From: Bacteroidales bacterium
GTDB lineage: Bacteria; Bacteroidota; Bacteroidia; Bacteroidales; UBA932
NCBI GenBank assembly: GCA_016291185.1
Contig: JAEFAI010000017.1
Span: 1 to 53,520 of the forward strand
Direction: 5' to 3'
Length of the DNA: 53,520 nt
The translations under genes were made by a program, and so were the position numbers. The notes below the pieces were generated by a model. The model made no database searches. It was not told the origin of the DNA and saw only the letters and a program-made list of their open reading frames with translations. This document shows, piece after piece, positions 4,108 through 47,336 of the stretch (positions are counted from its first letter, which is position 1; each line of letters begins with the position of its first letter).

Positions 4108-5046
4108 TCAACAATCCAAAACCGTGCCACGAATGTTTTCGGCCACCTGGTGCACCAGGCGGAGCAGCGCTTCGCGGCTCGCCCAGGCCGTGTGCGGCGT
4201 AAAGCGGAAGCGCTCGGGGTGCTGTACGTGCAGCAGCGGGCTGTCGGCCGGGAGCGGCTCCGTGACGTACACGTCGAGCGCCGCGCCGGCGATCACGCCC
4301 GCGTCCACAGCCGCGGCGAGAGCGGCCTCGTCCACGATGCCGCCGCGGCCGAGGTTGAGCAGGAAGGCGCTGGGGCGCATCTTCCGGAGCTCCGCGGCAC
4401 CAATCAGGCCCTTCGTGCGCTCGTTGAGCGGCGCGTGCACGCTGACCACGTCCGCGCGCGCGAGCAGCTCGTCCAGCGGGACGCTCGGATAGTCCGTGTT
4501 GTGCGAGGTCCCGGAGGTGGAATAATAGATGACATTCATCCCGAAAGCCGTCGCCACGGCCGCCACGCGGGTGCCGATAGTCCCCATGCCGATGATGCCC
4601 AGCGTCTTGCCGGCCAGCTCGGGATACGGGTGCGAGATGTCGCAGAAGATGCGCCCCGCCGAGTAGCGGCCGCTCTTCACGCAGTCGTCGAAATAGGGCG
4701 AGAAGCCCGCCAGCGACAGCAGATGGGCGAAGGTGGACTGGACCACCGCCTCCGTGGAGTAGCCCGCGGCGTTGCGCACGGGGATCCCCCGCGCCGCCGC
4801 GGCCTCCAGGTCGATGTTGTTCACGCCCGTCGCCGCCTCGCAGATCAGCTTCAGGCGCGGAGCGCGTGCGAGCAGCGCCTCGTTCACGCGTACCTTATTG
4901 ACAATCAGCACGTCGCAGTCCCCCACCCGCTCCAGCGCCTCCTCCGGCGTGGAGAACGGGTAGCAGACCAGCTCGCCCTGCGCGGCGATCTCGGTCAGCG
5001 GGGTCTCCCCCAGCGTAGCCGCATCCAGAAATACAATTTTCAGCAT
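4108..5046 (-). CDS. D-isomer-specific 2-hydroxyacid dehydrogenase (NAD-dependent)
   Basis: 312 residues starting MLKIVFLDAATLGETPL. The Rossmann motif GKTLGIIGMGTIG (about residues 140-152) binds NAD. The catalytic set is visible: Arg in NLGRGGIVDE, Glu in DVYVTEPLP and His in TPHTAWAS. The closest-looking relatives are glycerate/hydroxypyruvate dehydrogenases of Bacteroidales; other hydroxyacids remain possible. A 27-bp palindromic repeat (5053-5079) fills most of the gap to the upstream GH3 gene. Confidence 0.9.
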   Translation of the reverse strand: MLKIVFLDAATLGETPLTEIAAQGELVCYPFSTPEEALERVGDCDVLIVNKVRVNEALLARAPRLKLICEAATGVNNIDLEAAAARGIPVRNAAGYSTEAVVQSTFAHLLSLAGFSPYFDDCVKSGRYSAGRIFCDISHPYPELAGKTLGIIGMGTIGTRVAAVATAFGMNVIYYSTSGTSHNTDYPSVPLDELLARADVVSVHAPLNERTKGLIGAAELRKMRPSAFLLNLGRGGIVDEAALAAAVDAGVIAGAALDVYVTEPLPADSPLLHVQHPERFRFTPHTAWASREALLRLVHQVAENIRGTVLDC

Positions 5047-5052
5047 AGGAAT

Positions 5053-5079
5053 GAGATTCCCGGTCAAGCCGGGAATGAC
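5053..5079 (+). repeat. 27-bp palindromic repeat, intergenic copy with compensated stem
   Basis: Arms ATTCCCGG and CCGGGAAT flank TCAAG, preceded by GAG and followed by GAC. The layout matches the copies at 16512-16538 and 47310-47336, but one stem pair is swapped (G:C to C:G) on both arms, so pairing is kept. It sits between the GH3 and dehydrogenase genes. Confidence 0.8.
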
Positions 5080-15472: not shown

Positions 15473-16252
15473 ATGGTTCCCGTCGGTACGCTGGTGATGT
15501 TGGCGCTCTGTGCCCTGGTGGGCATCGCCGCGCCCGTTGCACTGGCCTGGTGGCTCGTGAAGAAGCAACACGCTAAACTGACTACCATCCTGGTCGGTGC
15601 CGGCGTGTTCTTCGTTTTCGCCCTGCTGCTGGAGCCCCTTCTGCACCAGGTGGTCCTGAAAGGCCCCAACGGCGCTGCAATTACAGGAAATATCTGGTAT
15701 TATGCTCTTTACGGAGGCCTTGCCGCGGGAATCTTTGAAGAGACCGGCCGCTTCCTCGGCATGAAGTTCCTCTTGAAGAAGGAGCCGAACGGAGCCCTGC
15801 CGGCTGTGGCCTACGGCACCGGCCACGGCGGCATGGAGATACTGATGATCTTCGGGGTCACGATGATCTCCAATCTCGCCATCTCGCTGATGATCAACGC
15901 CGGGCAGGCCGATACCATCCTCGCCGCCGTGCCGGCGGAGACGCAGGGACAGGTGGAGGCGCAGTTCGCGCAGTTGCAGGGCCTGAACGCCGGAGAGCTT
16001 CTGCTGGGCTTCTGGGAGCGCATCTCCGCCCTCATCCTCCAGCTGGGCTTGTCCGTCATCGTCTGGACGGCGATCCGCAAGGGCGGAAAATGGCTTTGGC
16101 TCTTCCCGACCGCCATCCTGCTGCATGCGTTGGTGGACGCCTGTGCCGTAATACTTTCTAAGTCCGTGAGTGTGACCGTTGTAGAGTTGATTATCTGCAG
16201 CATGGCTATCGCCGTTGGCGCTGCCGGCTATATGCTCGCCAAGAAGCTATGA
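15473..16252 (+). CDS. YhfC family intramembrane (glutamic-type) protease
   Basis: 259 residues with about seven transmembrane helices. The motifs GIFEETGRFLGMK (EExxR type) and YGTGHGGMEIL (GxGHGGxE type) are characteristic of the YhfC branch of the CPBP/CAAX-like membrane proteases. The substrate is unknown. It starts 3 bp after the TSCPD gene, and its stop overlaps the AlkD-like start as ATGA, so translation is coupled. Confidence 0.85.
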   Translation: MVPVGTLVMLALCALVGIAAPVALAWWLVKKQHAKLTTILVGAGVFFVFALLLEPLLHQVVLKGPNGAAITGNIWYYALYGGLAAGIFEETGRFLGMKFLLKKEPNGALPAVAYGTGHGGMEILMIFGVTMISNLAISLMINAGQADTILAAVPAETQGQVEAQFAQLQGLNAGELLLGFWERISALILQLGLSVIVWTAIRKGGKWLWLFPTAILLHALVDACAVILSKSVSVTVVELIICSMAIAVGAAGYMLAKKL

Positions 16253-16995
16253 ACCCCCTGCTGGAACAGATGCTCTCGCACGCCGACCCCACGCAGGTGG
16301 CGGGCCTGGCGCGCTTCTTCAAGACCGGTCCCGGCCAGTACGGCGAGGGCGATCAGTTCCTGGGGATCAAGGTCCCCGTGACGCGTGCCGTCGTCAAGGA
16401 TTGCTGGCGGGGCGTGGACTTCCCGGCGTTGGAAGAATGCATTGAGAGCGAATACCACGAAGTGCGGCTGGCGGCGCTGCTCGCGCTGGTGGAGATTTTC
16501 AAATACGCAAAGAGATTCCGGGTCAAGCCCGGAATGACCATAAAAGAACCTGGCATCTCCCAGCAGGCGTGCGTTGACTTCTACCTTGCGCACACCGACC
16601 GCATCAACAACTGGGACCTGGTGGATCTGTCGTGCTATCCGCTGCTCGGCGAATGGCTGCTGGACAAGGACCGCACGCTGCTCTACGACCTGGCGCGCAA
16701 CGGCAAGACGCTCTGGGAGCAGCGCATCGGCATCGTCAGCACGATGACCTTCGTCCGCCACGGGCAGCTGGAGGACACCTTCGCCATCGCGGACATCCTC
16801 CTGCACCACCCGCACGACCTCATCCACAAGGCCGTCGGCTGGCTGCTCCGCGAAGCGGGAAAGAAGGATCAGGCCGCGCTGGTGGCTTATCTACAGCCCC
16901 GCTATCTCCAGATGCCCCGCACGATGCTCCGCTACGCCATCGAGAAATTCCCGGAGGCTCAGCGGCAGCTATACCTGACCGGCCATGCCCACTGA
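16249..16995 (+). CDS. AlkD-like DNA alkylation repair protein with in-frame palindrome
   Basis: 248 residues of alpha-helical HEAT-like repeats, matching the DNA alkylation repair (PF08713) family of glycosylases for N3/N7-alkylpurines. DFYLAHTDRINNWDLVDLS is the conserved core. Residues about 88-98 (KRFRVKPGM) are encoded by a complete copy of the 27-bp palindromic repeat found elsewhere in the window, inserted without a stop or frameshift at a predicted inter-helix loop. Compared with the usual family this adds roughly 8-10 residues. The start overlaps the YhfC stop (ATGA), and the end overlaps the mug-like gene by 11 bp. Confidence 0.9.
   Translation: MNPLLEQMLSHADPTQVAGLARFFKTGPGQYGEGDQFLGIKVPVTRAVVKDCWRGVDFPALEECIESEYHEVRLAALLALVEIFKYAKRFRVKPGMTIKEPGISQQACVDFYLAHTDRINNWDLVDLSCYPLLGEWLLDKDRTLLYDLARNGKTLWEQRIGIVSTMTFVRHGQLEDTFAIADILLHHPHDLIHKAVGWLLREAGKKDQAALVAYLQPRYLQMPRTMLRYAIEKFPEAQRQLYLTGHAH
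16512..16538 (+). repeat. 27-bp palindromic repeat inside the AlkD-like gene
   Basis: Arms ATTCCGGG (16515-16522) and CCCGGAAT (16528-16535) flank TCAAG, with GAG before and GAC after. The sequence is identical over 27 bp to the intergenic copy at 47310-47336 and in the same orientation. It is read in frame as part of the host protein. Confidence 0.85.
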
Positions 16996-17578
16996 GAAGC
17001 ACCCTTTTGAGCCCTTTCTGCCGCCGGGAGCGCGCATGCTCTTCCTCGGCAGCTTCCCGCCGCAGCCGCACCGCTGGAGCATGCCGTTCTACTATCCTAA
17101 TTGGATCAACGACTTCTGGCGCATCCTGGGATTGATCTTCTTTGAAGATAAGAATCACTTCTGCCTCCCCGGCGAGAAACGCTTCGACGAGGCGGCCATC
17201 CGGGCCTTCTGTACGCAGGAGGGTCTGGCCTTCTACGACACCGCCTGCGAGGTGCGACGTCTGAAGGACAACGCCTCCGACGCCTTCCTGGAGATCGTTA
17301 CGCCCACGGACATCCCGGCGCTGCTCCGGCGGATTCCGGAATGTAAAGCGCTGATAACCACCGGCCAGAAAGCAACCGAAGTGGTCGCCGCCTCCTTCGG
17401 ATGTGAGCTTCCGGCGGTCGGAGGGAGTCTGCTGCTGGAGGTCGGGAATGACAAGCCCGGCGCCGACCCGGCATCTCGGACCATACAATTTTGGAGGATG
17501 CCCTCCACCTCCCGTGCCTATCCTTTGGCCTTGGAGAAAAAGGCCGACGCCTATCGACAGCTGTTCGCAACGGAATAA
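16985..17578 (+). CDS. Mug/UDG-superfamily DNA glycosylase
   Basis: 197 residues. Motif A appears as LFLGSFPPQ (residues about 19-27) and motif B as RMPSTSRAYPLALEKK near the C-terminus, as in the single-strand/mismatch uracil or hypoxanthine glycosylase branch of the uracil-DNA glycosylase superfamily. It would excise deaminated bases. A region just before motif B (VGNDKPGADPASR) looks like a degenerate palindromic repeat read in frame (17450-17488). The gene overlaps the AlkD-like gene by 11 bp, so two base-excision enzymes are made together. Confidence 0.85.
   Translation: MPTEKHPFEPFLPPGARMLFLGSFPPQPHRWSMPFYYPNWINDFWRILGLIFFEDKNHFCLPGEKRFDEAAIRAFCTQEGLAFYDTACEVRRLKDNASDAFLEIVTPTDIPALLRRIPECKALITTGQKATEVVAASFGCELPAVGGSLLLEVGNDKPGADPASRTIQFWRMPSTSRAYPLALEKKADAYRQLFATE
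17450..17488 (-). repeat. Degenerate palindromic repeat inside the mug-like gene
   Basis: Read on the minus strand it begins GAGATGCCGGGTC, 12 of 13 bases like the start of the 27-bp repeat. The second half (GCCGGGCTTGTCATTCCC) is diverged but keeps the CATTCCC/GGGAATG element. It is encoded in frame as about 13 residues between conserved parts of the protein. Membership in the family is probable, not certain. Confidence 0.4.
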
Positions 17579-36510: not shown

Positions 36511-37557
36511 ATGGCCAAAGTTTCCGTCAATATCGACGCACAGTGTGCGAAAATCCTCTCCGACGTGCGCGAGGGGCGCTTCAGCCCGCTCTATCTGCTG
36601 ATGGGCGACGAGCCTTATTACCCCGAAATGGTCTGCGACGCCATCGTGCAGGCCTGCATCCCCGAGGAGGAAAAGGACTTCAACGAGACCATTTGCTATG
36701 GCGGCGAAGTCACGGCCGCGCAGGTGGTTACGGCCGCCCGTCGTTTCCCGATGATGGCCGAGCGGCAGCTCGTGGTCGTCAAGGAGGCCCAGCAGATGAA
36801 GAGCATCGAAGAACTGGCCTTCTACTGCGCCGAGCCGCTGGACAGCACCGTGCTGGTGGTCCTGCTGCACGGCGCGTCCGTGGATAAGCGCAAGGCCTTC
36901 TACAAGGCCGCCCAGAAGGTAGGCGTGGTGGTCGATTCCCCCGCCCTGCGGGATTACGAAGTCCCGAACTGGATCCTCTCCTACTACAGCTCGCGCGGCC
37001 TGCAGATTGAGCCGCAGGCGGCCGCACTGCTCGCCGAATCCGTGGGCACGGACCTTTCCAAGATCGTCGTGGAGACGGACAAGCTCACCAAGGCCCTGCC
37101 GGAAGGCGCCACGCGCGTGAGCGTCGCCGACATTGAGCGAAATGTCGGTATCTCCCGGCAGTTCAGCATCTTCGAGCTCACCAAGGAGCTCTCCTACAAG
37201 CACGCCGCGCAGGCGCTCAAGATCGCCGCGCACCTGGGCAACAGCGCCAAGTTCGCCATGCCGATGGCCGTCAGCGCCCTCTTCACGCACTACAGCCGCA
37301 TCCTCAAATATGGCGCCCTGCTCGCAAAAGGCGGCTACCCCTCGCCCGAGGACAAGGCGCGCGCCCTCGCGGGCGTCAATCCCTATTTCTACAAGGAATA
37401 CGACACTGCCGTGCGCAACTACCCCGTCCCCAAGGCCATGGCCGCCGTCTCGCTCCTCTGCGACTACGACTACCTCGGCAAAGGCGGCGACGGCACCACC
37501 CTCGTCTCCGACGGCGAGCTCCTCACGGAACTCACCGCCAAACTCCTGAATCTGTAA
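36511..37557 (+). CDS. holA: DNA polymerase III subunit delta
   Basis: 348 residues matching the delta (HolA) clamp-loader subunit in length and layout. [14 protein letters not shown] lies at the start of the nucleotide-fold domain, [18 protein letters not shown] follows, and the helical C-domain contains the conserved [12 protein letters not shown]. Delta opens the beta clamp during loading. A second, diverged 90-bp fragment of this gene lies 1.6 kb downstream (38702-38812). A GC boundary falls right after the stop. Confidence 0.92.
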
Positions 37558-38701: not shown

Positions 38702-38812
38702 GCCATGCGCGTGAGCGACTCCGACATCGAGCGCAACGGGGACAACTCCCGGCATTTCAGCATCTTCGAGCCCACCAAGGAGCTCTCCTACAAGCAGATT
38801 GCCGGGAAATAA
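38702..38812 (+). pseudogene. Relic fragment of a second holA
   Basis: The fragment reads AMRVSDSDIERNGDNSRHFS and on to a stop at 38810-38812. It aligns with the holA region at 37114-37200, with about 87 percent base identity over 90 bp by hand comparison. Only about 36 codons remain, ending in an early stop. It is therefore a remnant of a diverged holA copy, not a recent duplication of the neighbour. Confidence 0.75.
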
Positions 38813-47309: not shown

Positions 47310-47336
47310 GAGATTCCGGGTCAAGCCCGGAATGAC
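47310..47336 (+). repeat. 27-bp palindromic repeat between symporter and araD
   Basis: Identical over 27 bp and in the same orientation as the copy inside the AlkD-like gene (16512-16538). Arms are ATTCCGGG and CCCGGAAT around TCAAG. It fills most of the 42-bp gap between the two arabinose genes. Confidence 0.85.

Follow-up and report, generated by a model that had tools for sequence, protein, structure and literature searches.

Palindromes that code for protein are best known from Rickettsia, where they could be attributed to relaxed selection in reduced intracellular genomes. The Rickettsia palindromic elements (RPEs) measure 105–146 bp, and an RPE-bearing guanylate kinase is described as translated and active (Delihas 2007, PMC2229807). 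Two of them, RPE-4 and RPE-6, have been classed as CGTC-REPs, a type of short palindrome described in five phyla, Bacteroidetes among them (Di Nocera, De Gregorio and Rocco 2013, PMC3733652). According to the same survey, family 2 of these elements has 8-bp stems, 5-nt loops and heterodimers, intragenic copies occur, often in repair genes, and no dedicated transposase accompanies them. REPs in the strict sense are described as seldom overlapping protein-coding sequence (PMC12306157). The RAYT-associated GTAG REPs (REPtrons) likewise consist of short palindromes in inverted pairs and carry a GTAG tag. In the open-licence literature (titles and abstract openings, among the matches listed) no work dealt with palindromes in AlkD or in rumen Bacteroidales genes, and the main text of PMC3733652 makes no mention of AlkD.

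A palindromic unit in the alkD gene of a Bacteroidales contig

The window analysed here is a stretch of 53,520 nucleotides from a Bacteroidales bacterium (contig JAEFAI010000017.1 of assembly GCA_016291185.1). As the initial annotation had reported, the same 27 bp occur identically inside an AlkD-like gene and between genes, the intergenic copy lying between two minus-strand genes, one for a class II aldolase and one for a sodium:solute symporter (Table 1). A third copy, absent from that earlier list, is intergenic if the adjoining minus-strand gene starts at 5046, and would overlap the N-terminus of its product if the TTG at 5067 is the start. In 100 dinucleotide shuffles of the window no sequence matched the 27-mer with up to three mismatches.

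Table 1. Features of the palindromic units and of the genes that carry them in the window.
Feature	Position	Strand	Remarks
AlkD-like alkylpurine DNA glycosylase gene	16249..16995	+	PF08713 DNA_alkylation, 186 bits against a cut-off of 21
27-mer GAGATTCCGGGTCAAGCCCGGAATGAC, in-gene copy	16512..16538	+	exact match inside the AlkD-like gene
27-mer GAGATTCCGGGTCAAGCCCGGAATGAC, intergenic copy	47310..47336	+	exact match
Third copy of the 27-mer	5053..5079	+	two mismatches to GAGATTCCGGGTCAAGCCCGGAATGAC, stem pairing kept (TTCCCGG/CCGGGAA)
Probable outer-end remnant of a second, inverted unit, CCTGGCATCTC	16549..16559	-	codes PGIS with its neighbours
DNA-deoxyinosine-glycosylase-like gene	16985..17578	+	TIGR04274 at 38.3 bits, short of the cut-off of 80
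Possible worn in-frame remnant of a head-to-head pair, VGNDKPGADPAS	17441..17477	+	inferred by comparison with units in the corresponding position of L130, L031 and L080

The in-gene copy begins at the third base of codon 88 and codes for RFRVKPGM plus two bases of a Thr codon; the reading frame stays open, with neither stop nor frameshift, just as first claimed. The AlkD motif residues are conserved in this insert-bearing protein. Its predicted fold places the segment in a loop between helices 70–89 and 105–114, which agrees with the site between helices originally proposed, residues 91–100 having a low-confidence mean pLDDT of 56. We call this loop 1 (about residues 90–104); a second loop, short in the window, lies near residues 215–222. 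Close homologues lacking the extra residues do exist. In an alignment of the query with 120 homologues listed of 8000 (121 rows), four proteins (P0033, P0058, P0059 and P0092) read across the site with the short loop AKNKQ(A/V)C and the other 117 have some version of the segment, both counts being among the matches listed. One of the four, P0033, is 89% identical to the query. These proteins, together with the 40 empty loops among 80 AlkD genes described below, support the view that the segment was inserted and is not a matter of family length.

Both exact units have the stem ATTCCGGG/CCCGGAAT and the loop TCAAG, and the third unit has the stem ATTCCCGG/CCGGGAAT around the same loop. In an RNA fold the in-gene unit forms a hairpin (z -2.36), which 3 of 200 shuffles equal. 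The unit ends are GAG and GAC(C/T/G), with no GTAG tag. At the tag end GTC is kept in all three window copies, reading GGTC at 16512, AGTC at 47310 and, thanks to a G directly after the unit, CGTC at 5053 only; among relatives, 12 of the 15 distinct in-gene rows for AlkD loop 1 carry CGTC. A short distance downstream of the in-gene unit, at 16552–16559, lies GGCATCTC, missed by the initial annotation, which resembles the end of an inverted second unit and belongs to a stretch in which PGIS is coded by CCTGGCATCTCC. Because GGCATCTC closes complete second units in three relatives (L033, L034 and L036), we read this stretch as a remnant, and the window loop probably holds a head-to-head pair of which one unit is intact and the other worn down to a scrap. 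Thus, of the insertion first envisaged, the event itself stands, and a lone 27-mer gives way to what is probably the rest of a pair of inverted units.

Judged by its sequence, the 27-mer fits a CGTC-type REP (8-bp stem, 5-nt loop). With family 2 as described in PMC3733652 it shares an 8-bp stem opening with complementary AT, a 5-nt loop and copies in open reading frames of known proteins including DNA-repair genes. It may also resemble that family in its CGTC-like tag, complete only in the 5053 copy, in the head-to-head heterodimers of five related AlkD genes, and in having no adjoining transposase gene, as judged from 17 mostly REP-poor Y1_Tnp loci. CGTC-REPs in general are characterised by stems of 8–9 bp starting with complementary AT, loops of 4–5 nt, an unpaired CGTC (or TGTC, CCTC) at one end, a predominance of head-to-head dimers and dispersal in many copies; the stem, the loop and the dispersal agree with what is seen here. 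The location of the copies differs: those of PMC3733652 are described as mostly intergenic, whereas 21 of 50 copies in the nearest genome compared (G001, see below) lie inside called genes, a share that also places them outside the strict extragenic definition of a REP. That survey describes one case of different REPs at about the same gene site (recB in two Xanthomonas species); here, in contrast, the contents of one AlkD loop vary between many lineages and come from unrelated palindrome families. With RPEs the unit has in common the in-frame position in conserved protein genes, but it is 26–27 nt long, or 61–73 nt as a pair, well short of the RPE range, and comes from Bacteroidales instead of Rickettsia. 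REPtrons also share the inverted pairs and the presence of HUH transposase genes in the genomes, and differ by their tag. The remark in the initial annotation that such a system in Bacteroidales would be notable has to be tempered, as CGTC-REPs are on record for this phylum among others, and for positions inside open reading frames (PMC3733652); the scale of in-gene copies goes beyond that precedent. Relative to the survey as described, the new features are the high in-gene share and a single loop that is filled in different ways across many lineages, also by palindromes unrelated to each other.

As a separate observation on the window, a 95-nt stretch of holA (DNA polymerase III delta) at 37108–37202 is repeated with 86% identity at 38702–38796, about 1.6 kb downstream where no gene is called, perhaps as a decayed duplicate.

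Loop fillings in related AlkD genes

To the AlkD gene of the window we added 79 loci from other genomes, 80 genes in all. These loci are the best tblastn matches to the insert-bearing query, which biases the share of filled loops; some come from one draft (L041 and L055; L074 and L081), and the relatives include metagenome drafts, some of them incomplete. Loop 1 was labelled empty in 40 genes, REP in 21, CHSER in 5 and other in 13, the labels being regular expressions under which L080 is doubtful as REP, L085 (CHAEHQRSI) counts as empty though it resembles a worn CHSERSEES relative, and L072 counts as CHSER from a short scrap. The fillings range from short loops (e.g. AKKDPALRQQC) to single units (e.g. 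RFPVKPGMT) and head-to-head pairs (RFPVKPGMT...TSCPARPGIS, the second stretch being the inverted unit), and include other stem versions (RPRVKPGVT, RPPIRSGVT) and a CHSERSEES-coding palindrome, unrelated to the REP, in L061, L092 and L094. Head-to-head heterodimers spanning 61–73 nt are present in the AlkD genes of L033, L034, L036, L040 and L065, and some REP units of relatives have 6-nt loops. Loop length also varies without a recognisable palindrome, as in the 13 genes labelled other.

Further palindromes were noticed along the way. By eye, another one is present in the AlkD loop of L047 and possibly of L108, and these two loops, as well as the neighbour-gene loop of L065, hold a palindrome-like family coding NYFSEGFPKNQFP- or EKYFSGRYPKSPFP-like peptides. 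In one draft genome (L061) CHSERSEES-type sequence occurs in AlkD loop 1, in loop 2 and in the neighbouring glycosylase-like gene. Two observations concern the gene itself: at L096:3992-5179 the AlkD frame spans 396 aa and, beyond PF08713, takes in a NUDIX domain (PF00293), so that the gene is either fused or read-on, and the surroundings of alkD in L130 match those in L031 in both orientations, suggestive of an inversion between close species.

A test free of labels, comparing the best hairpin per loop with equal-length windows from the rest of the gene, found scores of at least 8 in 16 of 44 long versions of loop 1 (0.15 expected) and in none of 55 short ones; for loop 2 the figures were 9 of 28 long (0.12 expected) and 0 of 73 short. 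The glycosylase-like gene directly downstream, whose product has no Pfam family at 1e-3, behaves similarly (6 of 25 long loops against 0.0 expected, 0 of 3 short). In the window this loop has a hairpin score of only 4 (17441–17477). Clearer units occupy this place in relatives, reading EIPDQVGND in G001 (L130) and VMPGTDRAS in L031; L061 has several CHSER units in a row, and the palindrome of L065 is a different one. In a genus sample, REP-like sequence was found in either AlkD loop of 6 of 25 genomes (our own yes/no reading; one-sided p 0.025). The sample scored 25 of 28 loci, with L153 scored no and L146, L154 and L159 left out, the last of which may hold a unit in loop 2; one of the six yes genomes has 0 copies of the REP pattern.

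On an IQ-TREE tree of the 80 AlkD proteins, built with the loops removed and with a bootstrap that had not settled, loop states change often. For the REP label (21 rows) 16 changes are needed, of which starred branches force at least 6; the CHSER label (5 rows) needs 5 changes with at least 3 forced, and the empty label (40 rows) 27 changes with at least 8 forced; these changes are gains or losses, which the counts cannot separate. The labels are hardly more clustered than shuffled ones (34 changes for all labels together, against a mean of 35.0).

The content of the loop is associated with the element load of the genome. In 34 of the 79 loci, hand-picked by loop state and compared with kinship ignored, genomes with a REP loop have a median of 32.5 REP copies (0–56, n=16) against a median of 0 (0–29, n=14) in those with an empty loop (one-sided p 0.0004). 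CHSER copies number 10, 13, 16 and 39 in the four genomes with a CHSER loop, compared with a median of 1 for the remaining 30 (p 0.008). There are mismatches: two REP-loop genomes have 0 and 2 pattern copies, four empty-loop genomes have 18–29 REP copies, and five genomes hold 16–63 CHSER copies with no CHSER loop. Across the genus, a generic REP pattern was found in 44 of 101 genomes, 13 of which have at least 10 copies.

Copies in other genes, reading frames and stem pairing

Genome-wide counts come from G001, the nearest genome compared, which shares 20% of the window's sampled 31-mers, and from other relatives. The count of the 27-mer suggested by the initial annotation, made in G001, gave 50 copies at up to three mismatches, 22 of them exact, and none for a reversed control; the repeat is thus dispersed, and both this and the homologues without the residues agree with the first interpretation. 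By a simple custom-made codon-usage gene finder, which underlies all in-gene and frame counts, 21 of the 50 fall within called genes, and for 20 of these the gene has a Pfam family. The 20 are in the genes for a tricorn protease, a MutY-like protein (inside its NUDIX_4 domain), ArgC, AtpG, an LptA/OstA-like protein (two), an outer-membrane protein, an ECF sigma factor (between regions 2 and 4), HrpB (two), a porin, GSCFA, a DsbD-like protein, a DUF1573 protein, a C69 peptidase, a sigma-54 activator, an outer membrane efflux protein, MetH (two) and a PspC protein. In the porin the copy sits close to the predicted start (residue 16), and a start error may account for it. The other 29 copies lie between genes or overlap gene ends (20 between same-direction genes, 7 convergent, 1 divergent and 1 undetermined).

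Other genes repeat the pattern seen in alkD. The ArgC segment of G001 is missing from the ArgC of eight relatives aligned and its AtpG segment from the AtpG of eleven. At the ArgC site, where G001 has a REP, L161 has CHPERSEGSP, which by eye is related to the CHSERSEES palindrome; AtpG of L182 and L187 has FRPERS-type sequences at other positions. In ArgC and AtpG no target-site duplication was evident by eye, and at none of the sites compared did a clean empty site come to light, which counts against insertion. In the 79 alkD loci, outside alkD itself, 11 of 17 strict units are in called genes (two of these low-scoring calls), and some genes are filled repeatedly, among them a PDDEXK_1 nuclease (L043, L045) and HAD-type proteins (L059, L096, L080). 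A tie between insertion and DNA-repair function was considered and set aside: AlkD, the MutY-like protein and the PDDEXK_1 nuclease are filled, but so are ArgC, AtpG, MetH, HisS and others.

Strict units numbered 94, compared with 1 in a base-shuffled control of the same 1.5 million bases. The 55 in-gene units, which include the biased alkD loci, are distributed over the frames as 12, 14 and 1 on one strand and 15, 6 and 7 on the other; taken in this order, the frames are open in 39, 33, 6, 39, 39 and 12 of the 39 intergenic units. Hence 47 of the 55 use the four frames that are open in 33–39 of the 39 intergenic units. Few units use a frame that is mostly closed, which is what the weeding out of stop-carrying copies would produce.

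The stems are preserved within the coding copies. Among 15 distinct AlkD loop-1 units, representing 19 of the 23 loop-1 rows scoring at least 20, 93% of 120 stem cells are paired and 21 cells are changed on both sides; leaving out the worn or fused rows L109, L035, L074 and L139 raises this paired share. In 500 shuffles neither measure ever reached its observed value, and a shift of the partner strand by one base lowers pairing to at most 52%. One stem pair joins a second codon position to a third, and there Phe, Pro and Cys codons alternate with the pair kept; the Ser rows L130 and L038 are unpaired at it. The same stem versions occur elsewhere in the relatives' genomes. The simplest cause is, because of this, that in-gene copies were drawn from, or exchanged with, the genome's own pool.

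Origin and meaning of the filled loops

We interpret these data as the outcome of palindromes being repeatedly inserted or exchanged and surviving where a loop is tolerant and the frame open, the segment in the window being an insertion of a CGTC-type REP in a surface loop of alkD; to this explanation as a whole we assign a probability of roughly 0.85. It is based on the dispersal of the 27-mer in G001, the in-frame location, the predicted loop, close kin without the segment, many changes on the tree and paired changes in the stems. A mobile or copied palindrome of 26–27 nt would have settled in the AlkD loop, probably together with a head-to-head partner, most of which has since disappeared. 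In this Bacteroidales clade such palindromes would insert widely or exchange between copies, and those that stop translation or disturb the fold would be removed, leaving survivors in loops and linkers and mostly in four open frames. Tolerant loops (AlkD loops 1 and 2, the neighbouring glycosylase-like gene, ArgC and AtpG) would therefore be filled over and over from the genome's own pool, and the inserted palindromes would later wear down or vanish, pairs losing units. The hairpin would be what is copied, and the peptide a by-product.

The most serious competitor is a single ancient insertion in the alkD loop, followed by vertical descent, gene conversion with other copies and losses in many lineages. 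Stem variants are often common to small clades (L033/L034/L036; L040/L081; L054/L059), the second-unit end GGCATCTC recurs in several lineages, and tree counts that cannot tell gain from loss would accommodate such a history. Against it stand the unrelated CHSERSEES palindrome in the same loop (L061, L092, L094), with its at least three forced changes, and an ArgC site that holds a REP in G001 and a CHSERSEES-like stretch in L161; we regard it as unlikely, though deserving serious consideration. The preservation of stem pairs by two-sided changes, even where one side alters an amino acid, could instead mean that the hairpin is kept in alkD for a function, e.g. slowed translation between the two helices or tuning of mRNA decay. 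That half of the AlkD genes (40 of 80) are labelled empty, that the same stem variants occur elsewhere in the genomes and that worn copies exist (L074, L035) make this improbable. Lastly, the extra residues might be an ordinary variable loop of the AlkD family that matches the repeat by chance or convergence. Length does vary without a recognised palindrome in 13 of 80 genes, but the absence of chance matches in 100 shuffles, the 22 exact copies in G001 and the excess of hairpins in long loops (16 of 44 against 0.15 expected) reduce this reading to almost nothing.

A possible mover of the palindromes is an HUH (Y1) transposase acting in trans. Y1_Tnp matches (RAYT-like proteins) are present in 78 of the 101 genus genomes, 69 of them with a match above the cut-off, and the REP load is higher in genomes with a match (78 versus 23 genomes, two-sided p 0.0013, kinship ignored); the 48 best genomes point in the same direction (39 with versus 9 without, one-sided p 0.008, kinship ignored), and G140 has one REP at a distance of about 170 bp from a Y1_Tnp match. 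On the other hand, 17 Y1_Tnp loci examined, a weak test as most are from REP-poor genomes, contained no strict CGTC unit; the REP-rich G001 has two Y1_Tnp matches only, both below the cut-off; many genomes have Y1 genes but no REP; and G049, at 70% completeness, has 12 REPs and no Y1 match. Mobilisation by the host's HUH transposases is therefore a weak lead and, as matters stand, a doubtful one. A REPtron in the proper sense finds no support for the unit, which has no GTAG tag and of which these 17 mostly REP-poor loci hold no strict copy. In L205, near-identical hairpins unlike the CGTC-REP flank a Y1_Tnp (HUH) gene on both sides (798–829 and 1968–2001); this gene with its own hairpins is a possible REPtron-like unit of the genus.

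Palindromes of this kind are frequent in drafts of about 1–4 Mb from bacteria of the animal digestive tract that are not known to be intracellular, and the same loops are filled in many relatives. An AlkD loop that carries different hairpins in different relatives amounts to a natural test of how far a protein tolerates insertions. Candidate before/after pairs are the sisters L043 and L045 (starred support) and, more weakly, L061 and L039. Such pairs could measure the cost of insertion to the enzyme and the palindrome's choice of site or its survival, and they bear on which enzyme moves CGTC-REPs, a question to which PMC3733652 gives no answer. The chances seem to us evenly balanced that, in this lineage, flexible loops of housekeeping and DNA-repair enzymes (both AlkD loops and those of the deoxyinosine-glycosylase-like neighbour, ArgC and AtpG) are standing habitats of palindromic parasites, refilled by unrelated palindrome families out of the pool that the genome has at the time, with mobile DNA as a chief source of new loop sequence. 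If they are, loop evolution in these proteins would be driven by the turnover of elements more than by point mutation.
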